NCBI GenBank assembly: GCA_003152325.1
Contig: PLZX01000336.1
Coordinates: forward strand, 58,159 to 90,291
Direction: 5' to 3'
From: Bryobacterales bacterium
GTDB lineage: Bacteria > Acidobacteriota > Terriglobia > Bryobacterales > Bryobacteraceae
DNA: 32,133 bases
Position 1 is the stretch's first letter. The number at the start of each line of letters is the position of its first letter. The translations under genes were made by a program, and so were the position numbers. The notes under the pieces are model-generated. The model had not been told where the DNA came from, did not search any database, and saw only the letters and a list, made by a program, of their open reading frames with translations. Below are positions 2,335-30,525 of this stretch, piece by piece.

Positions 2335-5115
2335 TTATCTGGGCAGTCTCTGTTCGCCCTGAATCTTCAGAGGCAGTTCGGCTCCGGCCGCGCCGGTTCC
2401 AGGCTGGCCAGCACCTAAGAACAGCTTATAGTCGCCGGCTGCCACCAGCCGGGTTCCTTCCTCATTCACCATGCTCAGATCGCGCGGATTCAGTGTGAAG
2501 CGCACGTGTTGTGTCTGGCCGGGGCGAACGCTCACGCGCTGGAAGGCGCGCAATGCCTTCAACGGAGCGCCGGGCAGTTTCGGGAACACGATGTAGGCTT
2601 GCACAACTTCGTCTCCCGCGACCGCGCCGGTATTGCGGACGTCGACATCCACCTGAAGATCGCTTCCGGCTTTGAGGGTGGCAGTGGAGAGCTTCGCGTT
2701 GTTGTAAGCGAACTTCGTGTAGCTCAGGCCGTAGCCGAACGGGTACAGCGGCTGCCCTTCGAAGTAGCGGTAGGTGCGGCCTTTCATCGAGTATTCATCG
2801 AAAGGCGGCAGGTCACTCAAGCTCTTGTAGAAGGTGACGGGCAGGCGTCCGCCGGGGTTGTTGGCGCCGGCTAGGGTCTCGGCAATGGCGGTGCCGCCTT
2901 CCTCACCGGGGTACCAGGCTTCAAGAATGGCATTGGCATTCTGATTGGCCCAATTGACGCTCAAGGCGCTGCCGTTCATCAGCACGACCACCAGGGGTTT
3001 TCCAGCGGTCTTCACGGCCTCGAGGAGCGCCTGCTCATCCTTGGGGAGGTCAATGGCAGTGCGGTCTCCGCCGAGGAAGCCTTCCGGCAGTGTGCGGCCG
3101 CCCATCTCTTCGCCCTCGACTTCTCTGGTAAGACCCACGAAGGCGATAACGACATCGGCCTGCTTAGCGGCGTTCACGGCAGTATCGACATCGGTAAGCG
3201 CCGACTGCCACCCGAGCGTCGGGGCCGAGGGGCCGAAGCCTCCGCGGCCACCACCCGCGCCACCACGGCCGCCGGCCGGCGGGGCCGCCGGTGCGCTGCG
3301 GAAGAACTCTACTTTGAGGGCGTAATCCTTGCCTTTTTCCAGCTTCATGACCGAACTCCGCGCCGCGGAAACGGCCGGATCCGGCGGCGCGCCACGGCCG
3401 GCGGCTGCGCGCTCGACCCAGTCGTCGATCACCAGTTTTCCGTCGATCCACACGCGGACGGCGCCCGCACCGTTGATCGAAAGGTTGTAGCTGTTGGACT
3501 CGACGGGCTTTAGGAAACCGGTCCAGCGAGCGGAGAAATCGCCGGTGCCGACACCATCGGGCAAGCGGCCACCTCCAAACGGACCGCCGCCTCCGCCCGG
3601 GCCTGCGGGCCCGATCTGGGTCTCGACGCGCGTCGCGGCCGGGGAACCGGAAAGATCCTTGCTATTGAAATAGACGGCCGCTACGCCAGGCTTGCCATCT
3701 TCGGTGTGGAGCGCCGCCGACGAAATCGTGATCGGGTTGCGCAGGAACTTCGATCCGGGTGTGTAGGTGACTTCGGCGGACGGGAACTGCTTGCGAATGC
3801 CGTCCACGGGCGTCACGTAGTGCGACGAAGTACCGTTATAGTTGCCCTCCAGGGCCGGAATGGAATCGGCCAGAGGACCCACGATGGCGATTTTCTTGAC
3901 GGTGGATTTGAGCGGCAGGAAGCCGTCGTTTTTCAGCAGAACCATCGCCTCGCGCGCCGCCTTGCGCGCCAGTTCGCGATTGGCGGCGCTGTCGTTTTCC
4001 GAGAACGGTATCTGCGCATACTTGACCATTGCGGGCGGGTCGAACATGCCCAGTTGGAAGCGCGCCTTGAACAAGCGCTTGAGGTTGAGGTCGAACTCTT
4101 TCTGGCTGATCAACCCCGTCTGGATAGCTGTAGCGTAGGCTTGCGTGTCGGCGCCGCAATCGAGGTCGGTCCCGCGTTTGAGCGAAATGGCCGCCGAATC
4201 CGGAAGCGCGGGCACGAACTTGTGATTGCGGTTGATGTCGCCGATGGCGCCGCAATCCGAAACCACATAGCCGCTGAAATTCCAAGCGCCGCGCAGCGTG
4301 TCTTCCAACAGGAACTTGTTGGCGCAGGCGGGCTCGCCGTTGATGCTGTTGTAGGCGCACATCACCGACTGCGCCTTGCCTTCCACGACGGCTTGGCGGA
4401 AAGCCGGCAGATAGGTGTCTTCGATGTCGTGGAGGGAAATCTTCACGTCGATGGCGTGCCGCGCGGGTTCGGGGCCGCTGTGCACGGCGTAGTGCTTGGG
4501 CGTGGAAATGGTCTTGAAGTACTTCGGATCGTCACCCTGCATGCCGCGAACGAAAGCCGTGCCGAGGCGCCCGGTGAGGAAGGGATCCTCCCCGTAGGTT
4601 TCATGGCCGCGGCCCCAGCGCGGGTCGCGGAAGATGTTGATATTGGGCGACCAGAAATCGAGGCCGGCCGGCCCCGGCCGCACACCCATGCCGGCGCCGG
4701 GCAGGGTGGCCCCGGCGGCGGGCGCAGCCACCTGCTTGCGCTCGTACTCGTGGAACTTGGCCCGCGCTTCGGTGCTGATGACAGTCGCCATGCGGAAGAT
4801 CAGGGGCTCGTCGAAGGTGGCGCCTAGGCCGATGGCTTGCGGAAACACCGTCGCAATACCTTGATTGGCGACGCCATGGAGCGCTTCGCTCCACCAGTTG
4901 TAGGCGGGAATCTGAAGACGCGGTATGGCAGCAGAAGTGCTACTGAACTGCGTAGCCTTCTCCTCGTTGGTCATTCGCGAAAGGAGGTCGTCCACTCGCT
5001 GGTCGGTCAGCAGCGCTGGATTCAAGTACGGCGGCCGTTCACCCGGTGGCGTCTGCTGGCCCACGACGGGTCCGATCGAAACAACCAGGAAGACTAGAGT
5101 GAGTTTTCGAGACAT
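2335..5115 (-). CDS. GH3 beta-glucosidase/beta-xylosidase with PA14 insertion and Gly-rich loops
   Basis: NWWSEALHGVA, FWSPNINIFRDPRWGRGHETYGEDPF, YVVSDCGAI and a fibronectin-III-like C-terminus. The annotated ORF starts at 5244, but the ATG at 5113-5115 begins a convincing signal peptide (MSRKLTLVFLVVSIGPVVGQQ). Confidence 0.93.
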   Translation of the reverse strand: MSRKLTLVFLVVSIGPVVGQQTPPGERPPYLNPALLTDQRVDDLLSRMTNEEKATQFSSTSAAIPRLQIPAYNWWSEALHGVANQGIATVFPQAIGLGATFDEPLIFRMATVISTEARAKFHEYERKQVAAPAAGATLPGAGMGVRPGPAGLDFWSPNINIFRDPRWGRGHETYGEDPFLTGRLGTAFVRGMQGDDPKYFKTISTPKHYAVHSGPEPARHAIDVKISLHDIEDTYLPAFRQAVVEGKAQSVMCAYNSINGEPACANKFLLEDTLRGAWNFSGYVVSDCGAIGDINRNHKFVPALPDSAAISLKRGTDLDCGADTQAYATAIQTGLISQKEFDLNLKRLFKARFQLGMFDPPAMVKYAQIPFSENDSAANRELARKAAREAMVLLKNDGFLPLKSTVKKIAIVGPLADSIPALEGNYNGTSSHYVTPVDGIRKQFPSAEVTYTPGSKFLRNPITISSAALHTEDGKPGVAAVYFNSKDLSGSPAATRVETQIGPAGPGGGGGPFGGGRLPDGVGTGDFSARWTGFLKPVESNSYNLSINGAGAVRVWIDGKLVIDDWVERAAAGRGAPPDPAVSAARSSVMKLEKGKDYALKVEFFRSAPAAPPAGGRGGAGGGRGGFGPSAPTLGWQSALTDVDTAVNAAKQADVVIAFVGLTREVEGEEMGGRTLPEGFLGGDRTAIDLPKDEQALLEAVKTAGKPLVVVLMNGSALSVNWANQNANAILEAWYPGEEGGTAIAETLAGANNPGGRLPVTFYKSLSDLPPFDEYSMKGRTYRYFEGQPLYPFGYGLSYTKFAYNNAKLSTATLKAGSDLQVDVDVRNTGAVAGDEVVQAYIVFPKLPGAPLKALRAFQRVSVRPGQTQHVRFTLNPRDLSMVNEEGTRLVAAGDYKLFLGAGQPGTGAAGAELPLKIQGEQRLPR

Positions 5116-5164
5116 GGGTTTTAGCGATGTAGCCTTTCGTCGACAATACTTGATATAGACATCA

Positions 5165-5284
5165 TGGTAGTGCCCAAGTCTGCCATGGTCTAGGTCTGTA
5201 CCGTATGCAGTGTTTAAGCCCCGCAGAATCTGTGTATTGAACATCGCTCCTGGATTCGTTCTAACGGTTAGGCTTGACCGTTAG
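5165..5284 (-). promoter_or_regulatory. Conserved operator plus leader module upstream of GH3 (operator 5261-5284 on minus)
   Basis: Minus strand CTAAC-GGTCAAGC-CTAACCGTTAG, then ATCCAG, CAGATTC, ATACGGTACAGACCTA and AGACTTGGGCAC. Same element order as upstream of GH51 and the TonB receptor. Confidence 0.6.
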
Positions 5285-5287
5285 AAC
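5258..5287. promoter_or_regulatory. Inverted repeat in the GH3/GH43 divergent promoter region
   Basis: GTTCTAACGGT-TAGGCTTG-ACCGTTAGAAC: perfect 11-bp arms with 8-nt spacer. Contains palindrome CTAACGGTTAG at 5261-5271. Confidence 0.7.
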
Positions 5288-5393
5288 CCCCTTCACCATG
5301 CGCGCCAGAGAAAAATCAGACCTATTTTTGCCGCAACTCGCGTACACTAAGACTCCAACCTCCCCAAATAAGGAGATCCCGAAGTACAGTTCT

Positions 5394-6896
5394 ATGCGCA
5401 CCGCTCTTCTAGCGACAGTTCTTGCCTTGGCCTCGATTGCCCTTGCGCTCGACGGCCAAATCGGGATCCACGATCCCTCCACCATCGTAATGTGCGACGG
5501 CAAGTTCTACACCTACGGCACCGGTGGTGGTTCTTTGGTCTCCGATGATGGCTGGACTTGGCGCAACGGCACCCGGCCCTCTCGCGCCGGAATGGCTCCC
5601 GACGTTATTCATCTTGGCAACCGCTACTACATGTATATCGCTCGGAACATCGGAGCGCAGCCCAAGGCCGAGATCAACATGATCTACAGCAATACCTTAG
5701 ACCCGAGTTCGCCGGACTACAAGTGGGAAGAAGGAGGCGTGGTCGCCTCATCCGACGGCGTCGAGGACTGCAATGCCATCGATCCGGGCGTCTTTCTGGA
5801 TCCCACCGACGGCAGGATGTGGCTAGTCTATGGCTCTTACTTCGGCTACATTCGGATGGTCGAGCTGGATCCCAAAACGGGCAAACGCCTCGATCCCAAC
5901 GACCACCCGCGTGACCTCGCCATCAATTGCGAAGCCTCCGACATGATCTATCACGATGGCTGGTATTACCTGCTGGCCACGCACGGCAGTTGCTGCCGCG
6001 GCGCCGACTCCGGATACAACATCCGCGTCGGACGGGCGAAGAAGGTGACCGGTCCCTTCCTCGATGTCGAGGGCACCGATATGATCCGCGGCGGCGGCAA
6101 GCTATTGATCGGCTCCGGCGGCCGGGTTGTGGGCGCCGGCCACTTCGGCCTCCTCGACTTGGGCGAGGGAGTTCAGAAGCTCTCCATGCACTGGGAGGCC
6201 GACCTGGACAGGGGCGGCGCCAGCGTGCTCGATATCCGCCCGCTGCTGTGGAAAGACGGCTGGCCCGCCGCGGGCGAGAACGCAAAGGAAGGCACGTACG
6301 AGATCGAATCCGTCCGTACCGGTACGGCGTTGGAGCTCAACGTCGAGGGAATGCCGGTCGGCGGTCCCCGCGGCAGAGGAGGCAGGGGAGGTGCGGGAGC
6401 GGGACCTGGCGGCGGTGTTCGAGGTGCGGTGGCGCCCGGCGGTGATGGGGCCGGACGAGGGATGTTCGGCGGCACCGGCGGCGTGATTCCGCCGCAGGAT
6501 GTGGCGCAGGTGTCGGCGAACTGGCCGGCGGGCAACATCGACTTGCGGATGGCCAACTACTTGTGCCAGGCTCAGCAGAAATGGGCGATTACGCCGGTCG
6601 CGAATGCCGGCGGCTACCCAGGTTCGCCGTATTTCAAGATCACCATCGCGGGCACGGATCGCGCGCTGGCCGCTATCGAAGACGCGGAACTGGTCGTTCT
6701 GCCCGCGTTCACCGGTGGGCCCGCACAGTTGTGGCGTTTCGACCAGCTTGCCGACGGCACGTGGCGCATCATGCCGAAGTTGGTCCCCAATTCCAAGGAA
6801 CCGTTGGCTCTTTCGGCCGTAGGCAGCAGTTTCGCTACACTGGCCAAATTCGATCCCAAGAGTGAGAAACAGCGCTGGCATCTCAAGACGCCGTGA
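5394..6896 (+). CDS. GH43 family glycosidase (arabinanase-like), secreted, with Gly/Arg-rich insert and C-terminal accessory domain
   Basis: HDPSTIVMCDGKFYTYGTG, CNAIDPGVFLDPTDGRMWLVYGSYFGYI. Signal peptide begins at ATG 5394 (MRTALLATVLALASIALA), not at 5274. Confidence 0.9.
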   Translation: MRTALLATVLALASIALALDGQIGIHDPSTIVMCDGKFYTYGTGGGSLVSDDGWTWRNGTRPSRAGMAPDVIHLGNRYYMYIARNIGAQPKAEINMIYSNTLDPSSPDYKWEEGGVVASSDGVEDCNAIDPGVFLDPTDGRMWLVYGSYFGYIRMVELDPKTGKRLDPNDHPRDLAINCEASDMIYHDGWYYLLATHGSCCRGADSGYNIRVGRAKKVTGPFLDVEGTDMIRGGGKLLIGSGGRVVGAGHFGLLDLGEGVQKLSMHWEADLDRGGASVLDIRPLLWKDGWPAAGENAKEGTYEIESVRTGTALELNVEGMPVGGPRGRGGRGGAGAGPGGGVRGAVAPGGDGAGRGMFGGTGGVIPPQDVAQVSANWPAGNIDLRMANYLCQAQQKWAITPVANAGGYPGSPYFKITIAGTDRALAAIEDAELVVLPAFTGGPAQLWRFDQLADGTWRIMPKLVPNSKEPLALSAVGSSFATLAKFDPKSEKQRWHLKTP

Positions 6897-18186: not shown

Positions 18187-19812
18187 TTAGTTGGACTCCT
18201 CGATCACTTCTATCCCGTTCACGCACGCCATACTCGTAATCGGAACGAAGCTGAGGACGATCTTGCCTTGGGCGTTGGGCCGGATTCCGGTGAACGTCCG
18301 GTCCACCGGCCGGCCTTCACCGCCGGCCTGCTTGAAGATATCGAAGTTCCTCATCAGGGCTACGCCGTTGCTATACACGTCAAAGACGCGGCTGCCCAGC
18401 CCGCCGACGCCGGTGTTGCCGCGTCCGTAGTGGCCTTCGCAGAATCTCAACGTCACCTTATACCGGCCTTCCGCTACCGGAATCGCGTAGGTGAAGTGAC
18501 CCCAACGCTCGGCCGCGTAGATACCCATGTCCGGGAAAGAGTCGCTTTCACGGGCGGGATTCGTCGTGCGGACCAAGGCGTTGCCCCCCAGGAAATAGGA
18601 GTCGGCCTGCCACTGCTGTCCTCTGGCATCCTGCCACCCCGTGGTCCAGCCGGCCCGAATCCGGATGGGCCTGACTTTGCCGCGGCCGACGGGAATCAGT
18701 TCGATTCCGCTCAAGACCGCCGTGCCCCGGGACGGCGTAAAGTTCAGATGAAGCAACCCGTCCCCGGCCGGTGAGATGTCCCGGAAGATGCGCTCATCAG
18801 AGGTATTCGCACCGTCGGCGTCGGCCACCACGTCGAAGGACTGCAGAAGCGTCTTGCCATTGGCCGAGACGCTGAACAGGCGCTGCCCCTCACCGCTCGA
18901 TTCCGCGCTGATGAAATCCGCCAGACCCGTCTCGGCAAAATGAAGATGCAATTCGTAGTTGTCAGGCTGGAGCGGGATGTCGTACCGGAACTCACCCTGC
19001 CGCACATGCCGATAGATATCCGGATCGAGCGTCCGCAAGATCCTCGCCGAGGAACGGACAAAGAGGGAGCCGCCGGAAAAAAACTGGTCCGGCCCCCAGG
19101 GTCGGCCGCTGCGGTCACTGTAGACGTTGGCGGAACCTACGATGATCCGTACGGTCCCACTCACTGGGGTTGCTGCCAGAGCGCTACCCGCGACAGGCGT
19201 GACCTTGGCGTCACCGGCGACTGGCTTCGCCGCAGGCCACCTCCAGACAGCGATCGACGCGGCAATCACCAGAAACGTTGCGGCTAAGACCCACGCTGAA
19301 CGCTTGGAGGAAACCGGGGCCTCCAAGACTTGAGTCTCTGGCAGAACCTGAGTCTCCGCCGGCGCTACGACCTCTTCCGGAATCAAAACCTCTTCCGGAG
19401 GCTGCGTCACTGCGGCGGTTGCTCCCCACGCAAACTCCGCGCTATAGGATCCCGGAGGCAAGTCGATCCTCACCGCATGAGGGTTCCCATTTTCGGCCAG
19501 ATAGTGGCGGGCAAGCTTCTTCCGCACCTCGTTGGCGGTTACCCGAACGATCGTGTGCTCACCTGTATCGAAATCCGGCGGCAGATGGAAAAGTTCCACC
19601 CCAATCGAGCGCTCTTTCAGAGTGCCGCTCGGACCAGTCATGGTGTGCTGTACGGTGTACTCAAGGAACTCCCGGCATCGCTTGCTATTGCGAAACGTAG
19701 GGCTCTCCAGGAGGCGGCTGAGTTCCGCCCCCACAATCTGCTGGCGAGATTCGTCGAGCCCGGTCTGTTCTTTTTCGGGCATTCTGCAACCTGACGCCGA
19801 ATCATAACACAA
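18187..19812 (-). CDS. Membrane-anchored regulator-like protein: N-terminal acidobacterial-type regulatory domain, single TM helix, two malectin-like carbohydrate-binding domains
   Basis: N-term LSRLLESPTFRNSKRCREFLEYTVQHTM..LKERSIGVELFHLPPDFDTGEHTIVRVTANEVRKKLARHYLAENG..VRIDLPPGSYSAEF; TM AWVLAATFLVIAASIAVW; two malectin-like segments (VRIIVGSANVYSDRSGRPWGPDQFF..., IRIRAGWTTGWQDARGQQWQADSYF...). Start may be ATG 19812 or 19782. Confidence 0.75.
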   Translation of the reverse strand: MCYDSASGCRMPEKEQTGLDESRQQIVGAELSRLLESPTFRNSKRCREFLEYTVQHTMTGPSGTLKERSIGVELFHLPPDFDTGEHTIVRVTANEVRKKLARHYLAENGNPHAVRIDLPPGSYSAEFAWGATAAVTQPPEEVLIPEEVVAPAETQVLPETQVLEAPVSSKRSAWVLAATFLVIAASIAVWRWPAAKPVAGDAKVTPVAGSALAATPVSGTVRIIVGSANVYSDRSGRPWGPDQFFSGGSLFVRSSARILRTLDPDIYRHVRQGEFRYDIPLQPDNYELHLHFAETGLADFISAESSGEGQRLFSVSANGKTLLQSFDVVADADGANTSDERIFRDISPAGDGLLHLNFTPSRGTAVLSGIELIPVGRGKVRPIRIRAGWTTGWQDARGQQWQADSYFLGGNALVRTTNPARESDSFPDMGIYAAERWGHFTYAIPVAEGRYKVTLRFCEGHYGRGNTGVGGLGSRVFDVYSNGVALMRNFDIFKQAGGEGRPVDRTFTGIRPNAQGKIVLSFVPITSMACVNGIEVIEESN

Positions 19813-19837
19813 ACCTACCGCCGAAGCGACGGGGGCC

Positions 19838-19952
19838 TTAACTGTCCGAATTAACGGTTAATTGGAGAAATAGCCGGACCCCTGTTTTGGATTCCAACAG
19901 CAAGATTCCATTTGGTGGGGCCTGGCGGACACGGTACCAAACCTAGCCCGCC
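19838..19952 (+). promoter_or_regulatory. Conserved operator plus truncated leader module (operator 19838-19861)
   Basis: TTAAC-TGTCCGAA-TTAACGGTTAA; 15-nt palindrome AATTAACGGTTAATT at 19849-19863; then GCCGGACC, AAGATTCCATT, ACACGGTACCAAACCTA as in the other leaders. Confidence 0.6.
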
Positions 19953-20239: not shown

Positions 20240-21511
<1,272 letters not shown>

Positions 21512-21599: not shown

Positions 21600-21768
21600 T
21601 TAACTCTCTCACCTAACCGTTAGCCCAGGGGAAATCCAGACTTTCTATCTGAAGCCAAACAATAAGATTCTATTGGCGTTAAATCCAGGATACCTGGCGC
21701 ACACCGTATGAAACCTATAACTCTCCGGACTTCGGTGTCAGACTGGCCCAAGCCAAGGTGGGAGCCAA
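21600..21768 (+). promoter_or_regulatory. Conserved operator plus leader module upstream of GH51 (operator 21600-21623)
   Basis: TTAAC-TCTCTCAC-CTAACCGTTAG; shares 21 identical nt (TCTCACCTAACCGTTAGCCCA) with the TonB receptor leader, then AAGATTCTATT, ACACCGTATGAAACCTA, GGACTTCGGTG, GGAGCCAA. Confidence 0.65.
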
Positions 21769-21848
21769 GTCCATAAGCTCTAGGGCAACGGAGGTCGGGT
21801 CCACTACTGCCGGCGACCTGCCGCTGCTTGCTTCTATCGCGGTTTTTT

Positions 21849-21880
21849 GCGCCGGGGGGCGGATTCACCTCCGCCGGCGC
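21849..21880 (+). other. Stable hairpin in the long 5' leader of GH51
   Basis: GCGCC-gggg-GGCGGA-ttcacc-TCCGCC-GGCGC; nested perfect stems of 5 and 6 bp separated by an asymmetric G bulge. Confidence 0.4.
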
Positions 21881-21994
21881 TCCCGGCTCGCGGTCACATG
21901 GTTTTCGAAGGACAGGTTGCTGAAGATTATCGCCGGAGGCGTCCGCATTCGCGGCTCTTGCAGTGCGGAGGCCCCGTCTGTCCGGAGGATTGAT

Positions 21995-24145
21995 ATGCAC
22001 AGCAATAGGCAATGGCTCTTCATCATAAGTTTGACTGCGTTTCTCACCGGAGTTGCGGCTGCGCAACCCGTATGGGCCAACATCGACGCCACTCGCACGG
22101 GTGTGCCGATCACGAGGTTGATGTTCGGCGGCTTTATGGAGCCGGCCACGACCGGGGTGTGGGCCGAAATGATCTCCGACCGCAAGTTCTTCAACGAGAT
22201 CACTTCCAAACCACAAGCTCAATCGACTGCGGGCGGGTTTGGCCGCAGGCCGCAGCGGCGATGGATGCCGGCCGGCGACGACGCGTGCGTGACCATGGAC
22301 ACTAAGAACCCATATGTGGGTGAATGGAGCCCGCTCATCCGGCTGGACGCGGCAACGCCGCACGGAATCGGCCAGTCGGGGATTCATCTGGTCGCCGGCA
22401 GGGCCTACACGGGACGCGTCGTGCTGGCAGGCGGCCCGGGCAGCAAGGTGTCCGTCAGTCTGGTCTGGGGTCCGAATCCCCAGGATCGTGAAACTGTGGC
22501 CGTCAACACGCTCGCCACGAACTACGCCAAAGTTCCTCTGAAGTTCATTGCGAAGGCGGACACCACCGAAGGCCGCTTGGAGATCCTCGGAACCGGCAGC
22601 GGGACATTCCACATCGGTGCGGCTTCTCTGATGCCCGCGGACAACATCTCGGGCTTCAAAGCCTCGAACATCCGTCTGCTGAAGGAACAGGGAATCTCGA
22701 TTGCGCGCTGGCCCGGCGGGAACTTCGTGTCCGCATTTGACTGGCGCGACGGAATCGGCGATGCCGACAAACGGCCGCCGCGGCGCGAACTGGCGTGGAA
22801 CGGCATGGAATCCAACGACATGGGCATCGACGACTTCATGACTTTCTGCCGGCTGATCGGTGCGGAACCCTATATCGCGGTGAACTCGGGACTCGGCGAC
22901 GCGCATTCGGCGGCCGAGGAGGTGGAATATGTCAACGGTCCCGCCACCAGCCGGCTGGGGCAGTTGCGCGCGGCGAACGGACATGCTGCACCGTACGGCG
23001 TCACCATTTGGGGCGTCGGCAATGAAATGTACGGGCCCTGGCAATGGGGCCACATGGCCGTCACCCAGTACCCGGAAAAACACAACTTGATCGTCAAGTC
23101 GATGAGAACGGTCGACCCGAAGGTCAAAGTGATCGCCTCCAGCGCGACGCCGGAAGAGCTGTCGTGGACTTATATTGAGAACCGCCAGTTAGGCAGCTTT
23201 CCGGGCCGCGAAGAAGTGAAGGACAAAGTGCCGTATGGCTTTGGCACGAAGTATGACTGGACGGGAGCGCTATTGGAGCGTTCGGCCGACAATATCGATT
23301 TTCTCGGCGAACACTTCTACGGCTACCCCAACCTGGCAATCGACGTCGAGAAGCAGGCATTCGTAGAGGCGGACGACCCGATCGTCGACAGAGTGCGCCG
23401 CATGCCGAACAAGGTCCAGATGAAGTTCGAAGCGTGGGAGGAGTACTTGAAGAGGATGCCATCGCTGAAAGGCAAAGACATCAAGTTCGCTTTCGACGAG
23501 TGGGCGCCCAGGAACCGGTCGGTCGGTCCGCCGAGTAGCGCTCCCGCCATCAATAATCCGATGTTGAATCCCATGACCAACGCTCTGGTCTACCACGAGT
23601 TCTTCCGTCACTCCGACATGGTGGCCCTGGGGGTCGCCACGGGCGGCATGGGAACGCTGGCGACGGACGCGCACGGTGACGCGATCGGCTACCGCCTGGA
23701 AGGGCTGGTGATCAAGGTCCTCCACGACCACTTCACCGGCGCCCTCCCGGTTGCGGTCACCGGGAATTCGCCGCAGCACGCCATCAAAGGTGCGCTTCTT
23801 GTGGACCTGCCGGCGCGACCATCCGGAAGTCCTACGTGGCCGATTGATGTCGTTGCCGCGCTGAGCGCCGACCGCAAGAAACTGGCGATCTCGATCGTGA
23901 ATCCCACGGAGACGGCGCAGGACTGCGACCTGAATCTGACCGGCGTCCAGCCAAGCGGGCCCGCCAGGCTCTGGCAACTGACCGCTCCCGTTACCGCAAC
24001 TCCGCCTCCCGCGGCCGGGCCCGGCCGGGGCGGTTTTGCTGGCCCCCCGGCGACGATGGCGGAGAGTTCGATGCCGCAGGCGCCGCGCAGGGTCACCCTG
24101 CCTCCCAGCAGCATCAGCGTCTACGAATTCGATCTGAGACCATAG
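21995..24145 (+). CDS. GH51 alpha-L-arabinofuranosidase, secreted
   Basis: ISIARWPGGNFVSAFDWRDGIG, TIWGVGNEMYGPWQ (acid/base GNE), IKFAFDEWAP (nucleophile). Start reassigned to ATG 21995 (signal peptide, GGAGG at 21984-21988); the listed 21758 start lies in the leader. Confidence 0.92.
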   Translation: MHSNRQWLFIISLTAFLTGVAAAQPVWANIDATRTGVPITRLMFGGFMEPATTGVWAEMISDRKFFNEITSKPQAQSTAGGFGRRPQRRWMPAGDDACVTMDTKNPYVGEWSPLIRLDAATPHGIGQSGIHLVAGRAYTGRVVLAGGPGSKVSVSLVWGPNPQDRETVAVNTLATNYAKVPLKFIAKADTTEGRLEILGTGSGTFHIGAASLMPADNISGFKASNIRLLKEQGISIARWPGGNFVSAFDWRDGIGDADKRPPRRELAWNGMESNDMGIDDFMTFCRLIGAEPYIAVNSGLGDAHSAAEEVEYVNGPATSRLGQLRAANGHAAPYGVTIWGVGNEMYGPWQWGHMAVTQYPEKHNLIVKSMRTVDPKVKVIASSATPEELSWTYIENRQLGSFPGREEVKDKVPYGFGTKYDWTGALLERSADNIDFLGEHFYGYPNLAIDVEKQAFVEADDPIVDRVRRMPNKVQMKFEAWEEYLKRMPSLKGKDIKFAFDEWAPRNRSVGPPSSAPAINNPMLNPMTNALVYHEFFRHSDMVALGVATGGMGTLATDAHGDAIGYRLEGLVIKVLHDHFTGALPVAVTGNSPQHAIKGALLVDLPARPSGSPTWPIDVVAALSADRKKLAISIVNPTETAQDCDLNLTGVQPSGPARLWQLTAPVTATPPPAAGPGRGGFAGPPATMAESSMPQAPRRVTLPPSSISVYEFDLRP

Positions 24146-26580: not shown

Positions 26581-26761
26581 TTAACTGTCTTAACAGTCTC
26601 ACCTAACCGTTAGCCCAACAGCTGCCGGACCGTTCCATCAAAGCGTAATACTAAGATTTCATTATCCTTAATTCCGGAACACCGGCTCGACACCTGTCGA
26701 ACCTTTTCTTTTCTGGACTTTGGTGCCAGGATATCCCAGATCAACCCGGTCCCGGAGCCAA
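26581..26761 (+). promoter_or_regulatory. Conserved operator plus leader module upstream of the TonB-dependent receptor (operator 26590-26613)
   Basis: Near-perfect tandem TTAACTGTC/TTAACAGTC, then TTAAC-AGTCTCAC-CTAACCGTTAG, GCCGGACC, AAGATTTCATT, ACACCTGTCGAACCTT, GGACTTTGGTG, GGAGCCAA. Confidence 0.65.
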
Positions 26762-26793: not shown

Positions 26794-29700
26794 ATGGCTA
26801 AGAGGTTAGTCACGCGAACGTTTACTCAAGGACAGCGCACTGGCTTGGCGATGCTTGCCGCGGCGCTTGTACTCGGGATGTCGATTCCCCGGGCGGCTGC
26901 ACAATTGACTTTGGGGACGGTTTCGGGAACGATCCGGGACGCCCAGGCGGCGGCGGTGCCCGGCGTCACCGTCGGCCTCGTCAGTGAAACTCGAGGCACC
27001 CGGCGGCCCAATGCCGTCTCCTCGGCCGGCGGCGATTTCGTTTTTCCCGACGTGCCACCCGACACCTACACTTTGGAGATCGCTCACAAGGGCTTCAAGC
27101 CCCTCAAGCAAACGGGCATCGCCGTGAGCGCAGGCGACCGCGTCGGCCTCGGCGCCGTGACGATCGAGGTCGGCGGAGTGGCCGAGGCCGTCACGGTCAC
27201 CGCGGAAGCCACGCTCTTGCAGACGCAGAGTTCCGAACGGTCGACCACGATCACGGCGGCCGAGGTCAAGAACATACCGTTGAGCAACCGGAGTTTCCAG
27301 TACCTGCTGGCAGCACTTCCCGGCGTCAGCGGCAGCAGCACGACCCGGATAGGCGACCAGACCTCGTACTCGGGCGGCAACGCGAACATCATGATGGACG
27401 GTGTTTCGACCATGGACTCCGGCAACAACGCCGTCGCCATTTCGGTGAACACAGAGTCGATCGAGGAAATTAAGGTCCTGAGTTCGAATTACCAGGCGGA
27501 GTACGGCCGTCAAAGCGGCCTGCAGATCAGCGCCGTCACCAAGAGCGGCACGAACCACTTTCACGGCAGCGGATTTCTGAGAATGGCCCGGTCGAACTGG
27601 AATGCCACGAACATGGCCACTACGCTGAACGGCCAGATCAAGGCTACCAGCCGGGACAAAGATCTTGGCTTTACGGTCGGCGGGCCCATCGGGAAACCGG
27701 GACACAACAACAAGCTGTTCTTCTTCTACAGCCACGAGTTTGATCCCCGTTCCACAACGGTGAACGGCAACAGCGTTGCGAACTATCGAGTGCCGACAGC
27801 GCTGGAGCGCGCCGGCGATTTTTCGCAAACGCTGGACAACAACGGCGTCCTGTATCCCTACATCAAGGACCCGGCTTCTACCAGTCCGTGCTCGAGTTCC
27901 AATACTGCCGGTTGCTTTAAGGACGGCGGAGTACTGGGCAAAATCCCCGCCGCGAGCTTGTACCCTCTGGGGCTGAAGATCCTGAGCTTGTACCCCATGC
28001 CGAACTATACGGGTTCGACCACCTACAATTACCAGGGGGTGCTGCCGGTTCAAAGTCTCACCGCGCAGGAGCCGATTATCAAAGTCGACTACCAGCCCTT
28101 CACCAAGCTGAGATTCTCGGGCAAGTTGACCCTCTGGGAAGAGCCGGCCACTCTGCAGACCGGCACCCTGCCCGATTTCAACGATACCCAGGTGTACAAG
28201 AAGTGGTTTTATTTATGGGCCACCACGACTACCTACAGCCTTAATCCGACGACTTTCGTGGAGCTGACCGTCGGCCGCACGCGTAATGACTTGGCAGGGT
28301 GCTTTGGACCGACCAATCAGGTTTACGCGACCATCTGCGCAAGCGCAGTTCCCATGGACAAGATCGACAGCCTCTCCGGCGCCGGTCTGAGCGCGTTGCC
28401 GTCTCTTTATCCGAACTCCGGTGTGCTGGACAAGAACTACTATGCATATCAGGCCATGGAGACACTGAAGCCGCCCATGTGGGACGGAACCAAGATGAAC
28501 CTCGTTCCCAATTTCTCCTGGGGCTCCCGAGTGGCCAACGCACCCCCGAACGTCCCGTTCCCGGGCTGGCTGAATACCAACCAGAACAATGACTATACCG
28601 CCAGCCTCACGAAAGTAAAAGGCAGCCACACGCTCAAAGCCGGAGGTTACTTGACCCATAGCTACAAGGCACAGCAAACCCTGGCGGGGACGTGGCAGGG
28701 CAGTGTAAATTTTCAACAGGACACCAGTAACTCGCTGGACACGAGCTATGGCTACGCCAACGCGGCTGTGGGCGTTTTCGATACGTACAACCAGTTGTCG
28801 AAGTACGTCGAGGGGAGTTACGTTTTCAACAATGTCGAGTTCTTCGTCCAGGACAACTGGAGGGTTAATTCCAGGCTGACTCTGGACTACGGTGTGCGGT
28901 TCGTTCATGAGGACCCGCAACACGACAAGCTAGGGCAGGGCGTAAACTGGCTGCCCGATAAGTGGAGCCTGTCCAATGCACCGCTCTACTACTTGCCGGG
29001 ATGCGCCACTACCTACCCCTGCAGCGGCACCAACCGCCAGGCAAAGGACCCGCGCACCGGCGCTCTGCTGGGCATTAATACTGCCGTCGCAATTGGCACG
29101 CTGGTGCCGGGCACGGGGAATTTCCTCAACGGCCTGGTTCCGTCGGGAACGGACCCAGTACCCTCGGCCACCTACTACTGGCCGAAGCTGAGCCCGGGGC
29201 CGCGTTTCGGAGTCGCATATGATGTTACCGGCAAGCAGAAAATGATTTTCCGCGGGGGCATCGGACTCACGTTCGATCGTCCATCCGGCAACACCATTTT
29301 CAGTTTGATCTCGAACCCCCCCAACGAGGTAAGCCAGACCTTGTACTACTCCTCGTTCCAGACGATGGGTGGTCTCACCACGCAAGGCGCTGCCAACCTG
29401 AATGTCTACCAGCTCCACAGCAACTTGCCCAGCACCTGGAGTTGGAGCGGCGGCTTGCAGTATATGCTGCCGCAGGACACCATGCTCGATGTCTCCTACA
29501 CCGGCTTGCATGGCTACAACAACGTTGAACAGGTCAATATCAACACTGTCGATATGGGCGCCGCGTTTCTGGCTGCGAACCAGGACCCGACGGCCACCGC
29601 CTCGACGGTTCCGGGCACGACGGTAGTAACGCAAAACATGATGCGCTCTATCCGCGGCTACGGCAGCGTCACCATGATGATTCCGCGCGGCTGGACCACC

Positions 29701-30525
29701 ACGCATAATCTGCAGCTTGCGCTCACTCACCGCTTTGCCCACGGTCTGCAATTCAATATCAATGACACGATCGTGCTCCAGCAGAAGAACGACACCGGAG
29801 CGCGTATCCAGCACGACGCCAATGGCAACTGGTCCTATCGTTCCGACCAGGCGCAGGCAGACGCACTGCTGGGTGACTACATTCGAACGCGCCACACCTT
29901 CAAGGGCAATTTCGTGTATGCCATCCCCGGGCTGAAGAGCGTCGGCAACGGGGCCGCCAGACAGATCGTGAAGCAGGTCACCGGCGACTGGCAGCTCTCG
30001 GGTATCTGGAGCGCCAATTCGCCCACCGCCTACACGGTCGGGATGTCCTACCTGAGCGGCGGTAGTCAGAACCTTACCGGCTCGCCGGACTACGGCGTTC
30101 GGCCGGTCGTTCTTTCCAACCCCGGCTCTGGTTGCAGTAAGGACATCTACAAGCAGTTCAATACCGCCGCCTTTGGCCCGCCGGCGGTGGGCAGCGTGGG
30201 ACTCGAGTCCGGCCCGGACTACCTCCGCGGCTGCTGGTATCAGAACTACGATATGGCGATTACTCGCGAATTCCGTATGGGTGAGACCCGGAGGCTTTCC
30301 TTCCGGCTCGATGCTTTCAATGCGTTCAATCAGTCTCACATCACCAACCGGAACACGACCTATCAGGTGGCGAACACGACCAGTTCGACCGTCGCGAACA
30401 ACGTATTCGATGCCAGCGGCAACCTGCTTTCCTCCCGTCTGAGACCGAACAGCTCGGGCTTCGGCCAGGCAACTGCCTGGCAGACCGAGCGAAGGCTACA
30501 GGCGTGGCTCCGATTCACGTTCTGA
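26794..30525 (+). CDS. TonB-dependent receptor, Oar-like, with N-terminal carboxypeptidase-regulatory-like domain
   Basis: Signal peptide, GTVSGTIRDAQAAAVPGVTVGL..., plug-domain-like region (IMMDGVSTMDSG, LSSNYQAEYGRQSGLQISAVTKSGTNHFHGSGF), beta-barrel C-terminus ending LQAWLRFTF. Confidence 0.93.
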   Translation: MAKRLVTRTFTQGQRTGLAMLAAALVLGMSIPRAAAQLTLGTVSGTIRDAQAAAVPGVTVGLVSETRGTRRPNAVSSAGGDFVFPDVPPDTYTLEIAHKGFKPLKQTGIAVSAGDRVGLGAVTIEVGGVAEAVTVTAEATLLQTQSSERSTTITAAEVKNIPLSNRSFQYLLAALPGVSGSSTTRIGDQTSYSGGNANIMMDGVSTMDSGNNAVAISVNTESIEEIKVLSSNYQAEYGRQSGLQISAVTKSGTNHFHGSGFLRMARSNWNATNMATTLNGQIKATSRDKDLGFTVGGPIGKPGHNNKLFFFYSHEFDPRSTTVNGNSVANYRVPTALERAGDFSQTLDNNGVLYPYIKDPASTSPCSSSNTAGCFKDGGVLGKIPAASLYPLGLKILSLYPMPNYTGSTTYNYQGVLPVQSLTAQEPIIKVDYQPFTKLRFSGKLTLWEEPATLQTGTLPDFNDTQVYKKWFYLWATTTTYSLNPTTFVELTVGRTRNDLAGCFGPTNQVYATICASAVPMDKIDSLSGAGLSALPSLYPNSGVLDKNYYAYQAMETLKPPMWDGTKMNLVPNFSWGSRVANAPPNVPFPGWLNTNQNNDYTASLTKVKGSHTLKAGGYLTHSYKAQQTLAGTWQGSVNFQQDTSNSLDTSYGYANAAVGVFDTYNQLSKYVEGSYVFNNVEFFVQDNWRVNSRLTLDYGVRFVHEDPQHDKLGQGVNWLPDKWSLSNAPLYYLPGCATTYPCSGTNRQAKDPRTGALLGINTAVAIGTLVPGTGNFLNGLVPSGTDPVPSATYYWPKLSPGPRFGVAYDVTGKQKMIFRGGIGLTFDRPSGNTIFSLISNPPNEVSQTLYYSSFQTMGGLTTQGAANLNVYQLHSNLPSTWSWSGGLQYMLPQDTMLDVSYTGLHGYNNVEQVNINTVDMGAAFLAANQDPTATASTVPGTTVVTQNMMRSIRGYGSVTMMIPRGWTTTHNLQLALTHRFAHGLQFNINDTIVLQQKNDTGARIQHDANGNWSYRSDQAQADALLGDYIRTRHTFKGNFVYAIPGLKSVGNGAARQIVKQVTGDWQLSGIWSANSPTAYTVGMSYLSGGSQNLTGSPDYGVRPVVLSNPGSGCSKDIYKQFNTAAFGPPAVGSVGLESGPDYLRGCWYQNYDMAITREFRMGETRRLSFRLDAFNAFNQSHITNRNTTYQVANTTSSTVANNVFDASGNLLSSRLRPNSSGFGQATAWQTERRLQAWLRFTF

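Follow-up and report, generated by a model that had tools for sequence, protein, structure and literature searches.

A gene in a 32,133-nucleotide stretch of a Bryobacterales bacterium genome (the window; C163:58159-90291 of genome G000, a 5.88-Mb assembly that is 82% complete) quite likely encodes a ToxR/CadC-like transmembrane regulator, which would bind a locally clustered operator, sense with a pair of periplasmic malectin domains, and activate its own gene together with neighbouring xylan and arabinan genes. Working from the sequence and from predicted models, we established the architecture of the protein, the predicted winged-helix layout of its N-terminal domain (N-domain), the local and conserved operator, and the linkage of this operator to the regulator's orthologues. 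The first-pass annotation of this DNA had suggested a ToxR-like one-component system, and the winged-helix prediction, the single transmembrane (TM) helix, the malectin pair, and the regulator-linked operator agree with it; the computational tests able to refute this reading had favourable or neutral outcomes and thus support it. The relatives of the window are found in Acidobacteriota, chiefly in Bryobacterales, Solibacter, and Terriglobia.

The gene of this predicted transmembrane one-component regulator lies on the minus strand at 18187..19782 and encodes 531 amino acids. A conserved extended -10 element of its own promoter (TGtTATGAT, hexamer at 19801..19806, minus strand), which reads TGTTATGAT in the window and TGTGATATGAT in close orthologues, is located between the two candidate start codons; because it separates the ATG from the TTG, we take the ATG at 19782 as the likely start. 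The TTG at 19812 was ruled out as a start, being upstream of the conserved -10. Of the possible start codons mentioned in the first-pass annotation, the ATG is the one retained. When the larger open reading frames were scanned, no other regulator family was matched in the window, in line with the earlier description of this gene as the only regulator-like one there; a LacI-type gene lies on the same contig, about 40 kb outside the window.

The operator, YTAAC-N8-YTAAC-N-GTTAR, is 24 bp long and has three half-sites, a palindromic 11-bp core (YTAACNGTTAR) and an outer half-site 13 bp off. Genome-wide tests of the motif were pattern searches, and they returned four exact copies of the operator in 5.88 Mb, all inside the window, where allowing up to 3 mismatches gave 7 matches against 0.68 expected. 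Copy a (CTAACGGTCAAGCCTAACCGTTAG, 5261..5284, minus strand) lies between two putative targets, a GH3 gene with a PA14 domain (2335..5244, minus strand) and a GH43 gene (5274..6896, plus strand), whose true start is probably downstream of 5274 because the listed TTG start falls inside the operator. Copy b (TTAACTGTCCGAATTAACGGTTAA, 19838..19861, plus strand) lies between the regulator gene and a divergent esterase gene (20249..21511, plus strand), its putative target, and is conserved upstream of the regulator's orthologues, in the close ones near an extended -10; it had been recognised in the first-pass annotation and is real, one of the four exact copies, though the motif now comprises three half-sites over 24 bp. 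Copies c (TTAACTCTCTCACCTAACCGTTAG, 21600..21623) and d (TTAACAGTCTCACCTAACCGTTAG, 26590..26613), both on the plus strand, are upstream of putative target genes for an alpha-L-arabinofuranosidase-like protein (21758..24145, plus strand) and a TonB-dependent-receptor-like outer-membrane protein (OMP_b-brl_4; 26794..30525, plus strand), respectively.

The 11-bp core occurs eight times in the genome, with six copies on C163, one inside an apparent tRNA gene, and one on C365. As this contig of about 90 kb makes up 1.5% of the assembly, the binomial probability of finding six of eight cores on it is near 4e-10. The cores on C163 adjoin genes for xylan and arabinan hydrolases, esterases, and TonB-type outer-membrane proteins. 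Two of them are outside the window: the core at C163:20123 (L064:123) has a GH43 gene on one side and an acetyl-xylan esterase/GH3 pair on the other, and the core at C163:32396 (L064:12396) precedes a gene for a second TonB-type protein. Judged by these sites, the putative regulon extends beyond the window, and from the genes beside the two extra cores we take the controlled set to be a hemicellulose (arabinoxylan-like) locus of about 65 kb.

In the promoter of the regulator itself, about 32 bp lie between the -10 hexamer and the closest upstream half-site, and at the target promoters the operator is farther upstream still. Sites so far upstream of non-consensus -35 regions suit activation better than repression, and CadC and ToxR are mainly activators; we infer that control is probably by activation. 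The opposite sign, in which the regulator represses and a sugar frees it from the operator, could fit autorepression at copy b, which flanks the regulator's own promoter, yet the position of the operator relative to the -10 makes it unlikely. Two further elements follow the operator on the target side: element A (AAGATTC; AAGATTCCATT at site b, from 19902) and element G (consensus CACCGTACCAAACCTA; CACGGTACCAAACCTA at site b, 19930-19945), which at this site are conserved and point toward the esterase on the plus strand. They are found at 5191-5232, 19902-19945, 21664-21717, and 26653-26704 of the window, and also on the divergent side of the orthologue loci L066-L075. At the target promoters, A stands 40, 40, 39, and 28 bp past the core and G 68, 78, 75, and 54 bp past it (the match to G at site d is weak), so that the spacings shift by about one helical turn (~10 bp). 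By inspection, G is directly upstream of an extended -10-like TGnTAnnnT at site b and in the orthologues. Two other roles for G were considered and rejected: it is not an element recognised genome-wide (18 matches at up to 3 mismatches vs 39 in the reversed control), nor, by inspection, a sigma-54 promoter, as no GC is conserved at the required spacing. In a separate observation, a conserved string like AACGCTATACCTGCTAC occurs upstream of Acidobacteriaceae regulators (L084, L093, L098, L103, L116, L119, and L124), where it is likely a divergent promoter or another site.

The N-domain (residues 11-119; 19426..19752, minus strand) is predicted to be a winged helix. Modelled alone with AlphaFold2, it reached a pLDDT of 87.5 and a pTM of 0.83, with helices at residues 11-25, 28-31, 34-49, 57-63, and 78-96 and a two-strand wing at 104-107/116-119; in the model, this is the helix and wing order of the OmpR/PhoB type, with a long loop of 14 residues between helices 57-63 and 78-96. 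The last of these is the predicted recognition helix (IVRVTANEVRKKLARHYLA; 19495..19551, minus strand), which in the alignment of 10 close orthologues is almost invariant. The domain matched no Pfam or NCBIfam model and fell below the curated cut-off of PF00486 (5 of the 78 family members match, only at E 0.09 or worse), a sequence search against solved structures gave two chance matches only, and Foldseek found no winged helix in the PDB at E<0.5 and no confident match for the model. Its top PDB match, weak and with a low TM score, was ScpB, itself a winged-helix protein, and the low-scoring matches in the PDB and a viral library, none of them confident, also include an OmpR/PhoB-type phage protein. 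When its profile was aligned to that of 13 Trans_reg_C domains from this genome, the score was 24.0, compared to a maximum of 20.7 among 150 column permutations (0/150 as good) and 11.7 for the reversed profile, and the alignment is in register, with recognition helix on recognition helix. The sequence relation to Trans_reg_C is thus weak but significant, and we take the N-domain to belong to the OmpR/PhoB winged-helix group but to have diverged strongly, outside the formal PF00486. The structure prediction that had been proposed as a check on this domain has returned a winged-helix topology.

The type of domain was said earlier to precede TPR modules, and in the same genome it indeed does so (L002-L008; the TPR tails include L007, L008, and others), and it also stands before other membrane-anchored, sensor-like tails. 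The same domain occurs at L228:2001-2303, and domains of this kind, for which there is no Pfam model, are found on 270 plasmid records, mostly rhizobial (Rhizobium, Sinorhizobium, and Agrobacterium), where the proteins are often annotated as adenylate cyclase; the N-domain may be an overlooked DNA-binding family. That annotation, the weak Foldseek matches, and the lack of a Pfam model would also suit a protein-interaction or signalling module, with another factor reading the operator. We consider this very unlikely in view of the predicted winged-helix topology, the significant Trans_reg_C match with the recognition helices in register, and the linkage of half-sites to the regulator family across genomes. 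Physical binding of the operator by the N-domain itself is, on the sequence evidence, very likely.

This linkage was followed first in a close set of ten orthologues (L066-L075, 62-66% identity) and one in G057; L075 is the contig of the G028 locus. Their genes adjoin orthologous arabinofuranosidase, esterase, GH9, GH43, GH95, or TonB-type genes. A strict search for the 24-bp operator in 12 relatives gave a single near-match, located in G027 about 240 bp before a malectin regulator; because the spacing varies, the 11-bp core was used for later comparisons. Counting the window and the 11 close-orthologue loci together, the exact core stands just upstream of 10 of the 12 regulator genes, with altered half-sites in the other two, and the G028 orthologue has GTTA half-sites only, in a changed layout. 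All 19 cores in these 222 kb are intergenic, whereas intergenic DNA makes up 9% (naive probability near 1e-20).

The distant set consists of 67 regulators, most of which share 35-45% identity with the window protein, some of them being closer to each other. An unbiased hexamer test of these against 220 further promoters from their loci put GTTACA, CCGTTA, GGTTAA, GGGTTA, and CGTTAA on top, with p down to 4e-23, a value uncorrected for kinship among the regulators. Here the half-sites are direct repeats, most commonly spaced by 10-11, 20-23, 32-33, and 42-43 bp, with a period of 11.1 bp (R=0.60 vs a null maximum of 0.24, kinship likewise uncorrected). The half-site layout of the close group is inverted 6 plus direct 13, that of the others direct 10-11. 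The proposed tie between the regulator and a YTAAC regulon is therefore borne out in the sense that the motif is local, conserved, and linked to the regulator's orthologues, the enrichment being a measure of linkage.

The LacI-family regulator at C163:16595-17596 (L065) was considered as the protein that binds the operator, with the malectin protein as a bystander. LacI proteins bind palindromes, the core is palindromic, the LacI gene adjoins core site e as well as arabinofuranosidase and GH43 genes, and the protein is present at 52-65% identity in 9 of the 11 close-orthologue genomes. However, G062 and G057 have no LacI orthologue (best 30-33%) but have retained the core in front of the malectin regulator, no more than 2 of the orthologue loci retrieved contain a LacI match, and the half-sites of the distant regulators are 11-bp-phased direct repeats rather than palindromes. 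Since the two genomes keep the operator without it, we regard LacI as highly improbable in this role, and, taken with the half-sites seen across the family, the retained core speaks for the malectin regulator as what reads the operator; L065 may be another regulator acting on this locus. That the operator is a general promoter element of Acidobacteriota TonB-type outer-membrane genes, unconnected to the regulator, could be thought of because many malectin regulators are divergent from a TonB-type gene and have an intergenic region in common with it, but it is scarcely credible given that, in four genomes, 30 TonB-type promoters average 1.0 half-site in 300 bp whereas the regions upstream of regulators average 4.5, three or more half-sites within 50 bp occur in 1/30 (3%) of these promoters against 77% of regulator upstream regions (again uncorrected for kinship), and the genome has at least 59 TonB-type family matches for 8 core sites. 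The OMP_b-brl_4 TonB-type proteins are much expanded, with at least 41-59 matches per genome (G000, G009, G027, and G036).

The full-length AlphaFold2 model, built with 78 natural relatives, has a mean pLDDT of 86.7 and consists of the N-domain, a linker that is disordered at about residues 123-162, one helix, and two beta-sandwich domains. The TM helix that was expected to join the N-domain to the malectin pair is present as a single hydrophobic helix, both by hydropathy (residues 162-180; 19243..19299, minus strand) and in the model (165-179). There is one such helix and no second between the N-domain and the malectins. The cytoplasmic N-domain and periplasmic malectins proposed earlier fit this single helix, while the charge bias is slight (K+R before/after the TM 2.94/2.49), so that the orientation is assigned mainly from the domain types.

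Malectin domain 1 covers about residues 206-365 (18688..19167, minus strand) and domain 2 about residues 372-528 (18199..18669, minus strand; best stretch 385-505). A Pfam scan of the protein matched malectin only, PF11721, in two stretches (126 bits with a cut-off of 23, E=1.8e-36), and in Foldseek the best solved matches of the ectodomain were the tandem malectins of FERONIA, ANXUR1, and ANXUR2 (E about 7e-20; 6.9e-20 to 5y92). The two malectin domains named in the first-pass annotation are thus seen in the Pfam stretches, the modelled beta-sandwiches, and the fold matches alike. Domain 2 has aromatics at positions equivalent to those of the glycan-contact residues of animal malectin; position 427 (W427) is aromatic (W/F/Y) in 75 of 78 family members, with only part of the contact residues mapped. 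In plant tandem malectins the canonical sugar site is absent and tested oligosaccharides were unbound (PMC6038381), so sugar sensing cannot be assumed here. In one orthologue (L074:3897-5483), the family sequence of the second malectin is lost midway, which looks like a frameshift.

In the mechanism that we propose, a TonB-type protein would admit externally released oligosaccharides to the periplasm, where the malectin pair, most likely through domain 2, would sense one of the arabinoxylan-type hemicellulose. The identity of the ligand as a hemicellulose oligosaccharide is only slightly favoured, and the ligand step, reached by inference, is the weakest part of the mechanism. The flexible linker and the one TM helix would couple the malectins to a cytoplasmic, diverged OmpR/PhoB-type winged helix that binds YTAAC-N8-YTAAC-N-GTTAR, and ligand-bound malectins may alter a dimer in the membrane such that the winged helices then occupy the tandem half-sites. 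The activated set would comprise the regulator's own gene and genes for GH10, GH3, GH43, arabinofuranosidases, esterases, GH95, GH9, and TonB-type outer-membrane proteins.

The protein resembles ToxR/CadC-like regulators (PF00486, TM helix, and periplasmic sensor) in being single-pass, with a predicted N-terminal winged helix that would be inside and a sensor that would be outside, one protein doing both jobs, but its N-domain is below PF00486 and in no curated family, and its sensor is a malectin pair; a survey of regulators of this type (PMC10269533) does not bring up malectin in its main text. The helically phased GTTA half-sites recall the tandem binding of the PhoB/OmpR type. With the CrRLK1L receptor kinases FERONIA, ANXUR1, and ANXUR2 it has in common a single pass and a tandem malectin ectodomain, whereas their intracellular part is a kinase, for which the Pfam scan of the regulator gave no match. 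Animal malectin, in contrast, is an ER lectin of one domain with no DNA-binding part, while both domains here match PF11721. SusR-like regulators of Bacteroides are activators of glycan loci whose sugar is bound in the periplasm and whose genes often adjoin that of the outer-membrane transporter, and their sites are repeated on one face of the DNA, whole helical turns apart (PMC3878776). The repeated sites at whole helical turns and the glycan locus with an outer-membrane transporter are alike in our case; however, SusR-like proteins are maltose sensors of a Bacteroidetes family with an unrelated, C-terminal DNA-binding domain, where the regulator described here ends in malectin.

The protein seems to be a ToxR/CadC-like regulator that combines a FERONIA-like sensor with a predicted winged helix of no curated family, and this kind seems common in Acidobacteriota. 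We lean toward the view that this phylum has its own class of glycan-locus regulators, in which membrane-spanning tandem-malectin receptors would read plant-wall oligosaccharides by a FERONIA-like ectodomain and directly control the neighbouring TonB/hydrolase locus by way of an unrecognised family of winged helices, every paralogue having its own layout of GTTA half-sites; such a class would be a counterpart of the Bacteroides SusR and hybrid two-component systems. Acidobacteriota are major soil decomposers, and how they choose which plant-polysaccharide genes to express is poorly described. A regulator family with its DNA code and target loci could make regulons readable from many genomes, the uncurated domain that is widespread in rhizobial "adenylate cyclase" proteins is suggested to be DNA-binding, and a bacterial tandem-malectin sensor offers a test case for whether such an ectodomain binds sugar, which is disputed. 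We found no account of malectin regulators in the open literature searched. It is also of interest that G027 has four full-length malectin regulators (C45, C62, C73, and C83) and that three of these have a TonB-type gene close by, which suggests that the regulators expanded along with glycan loci.
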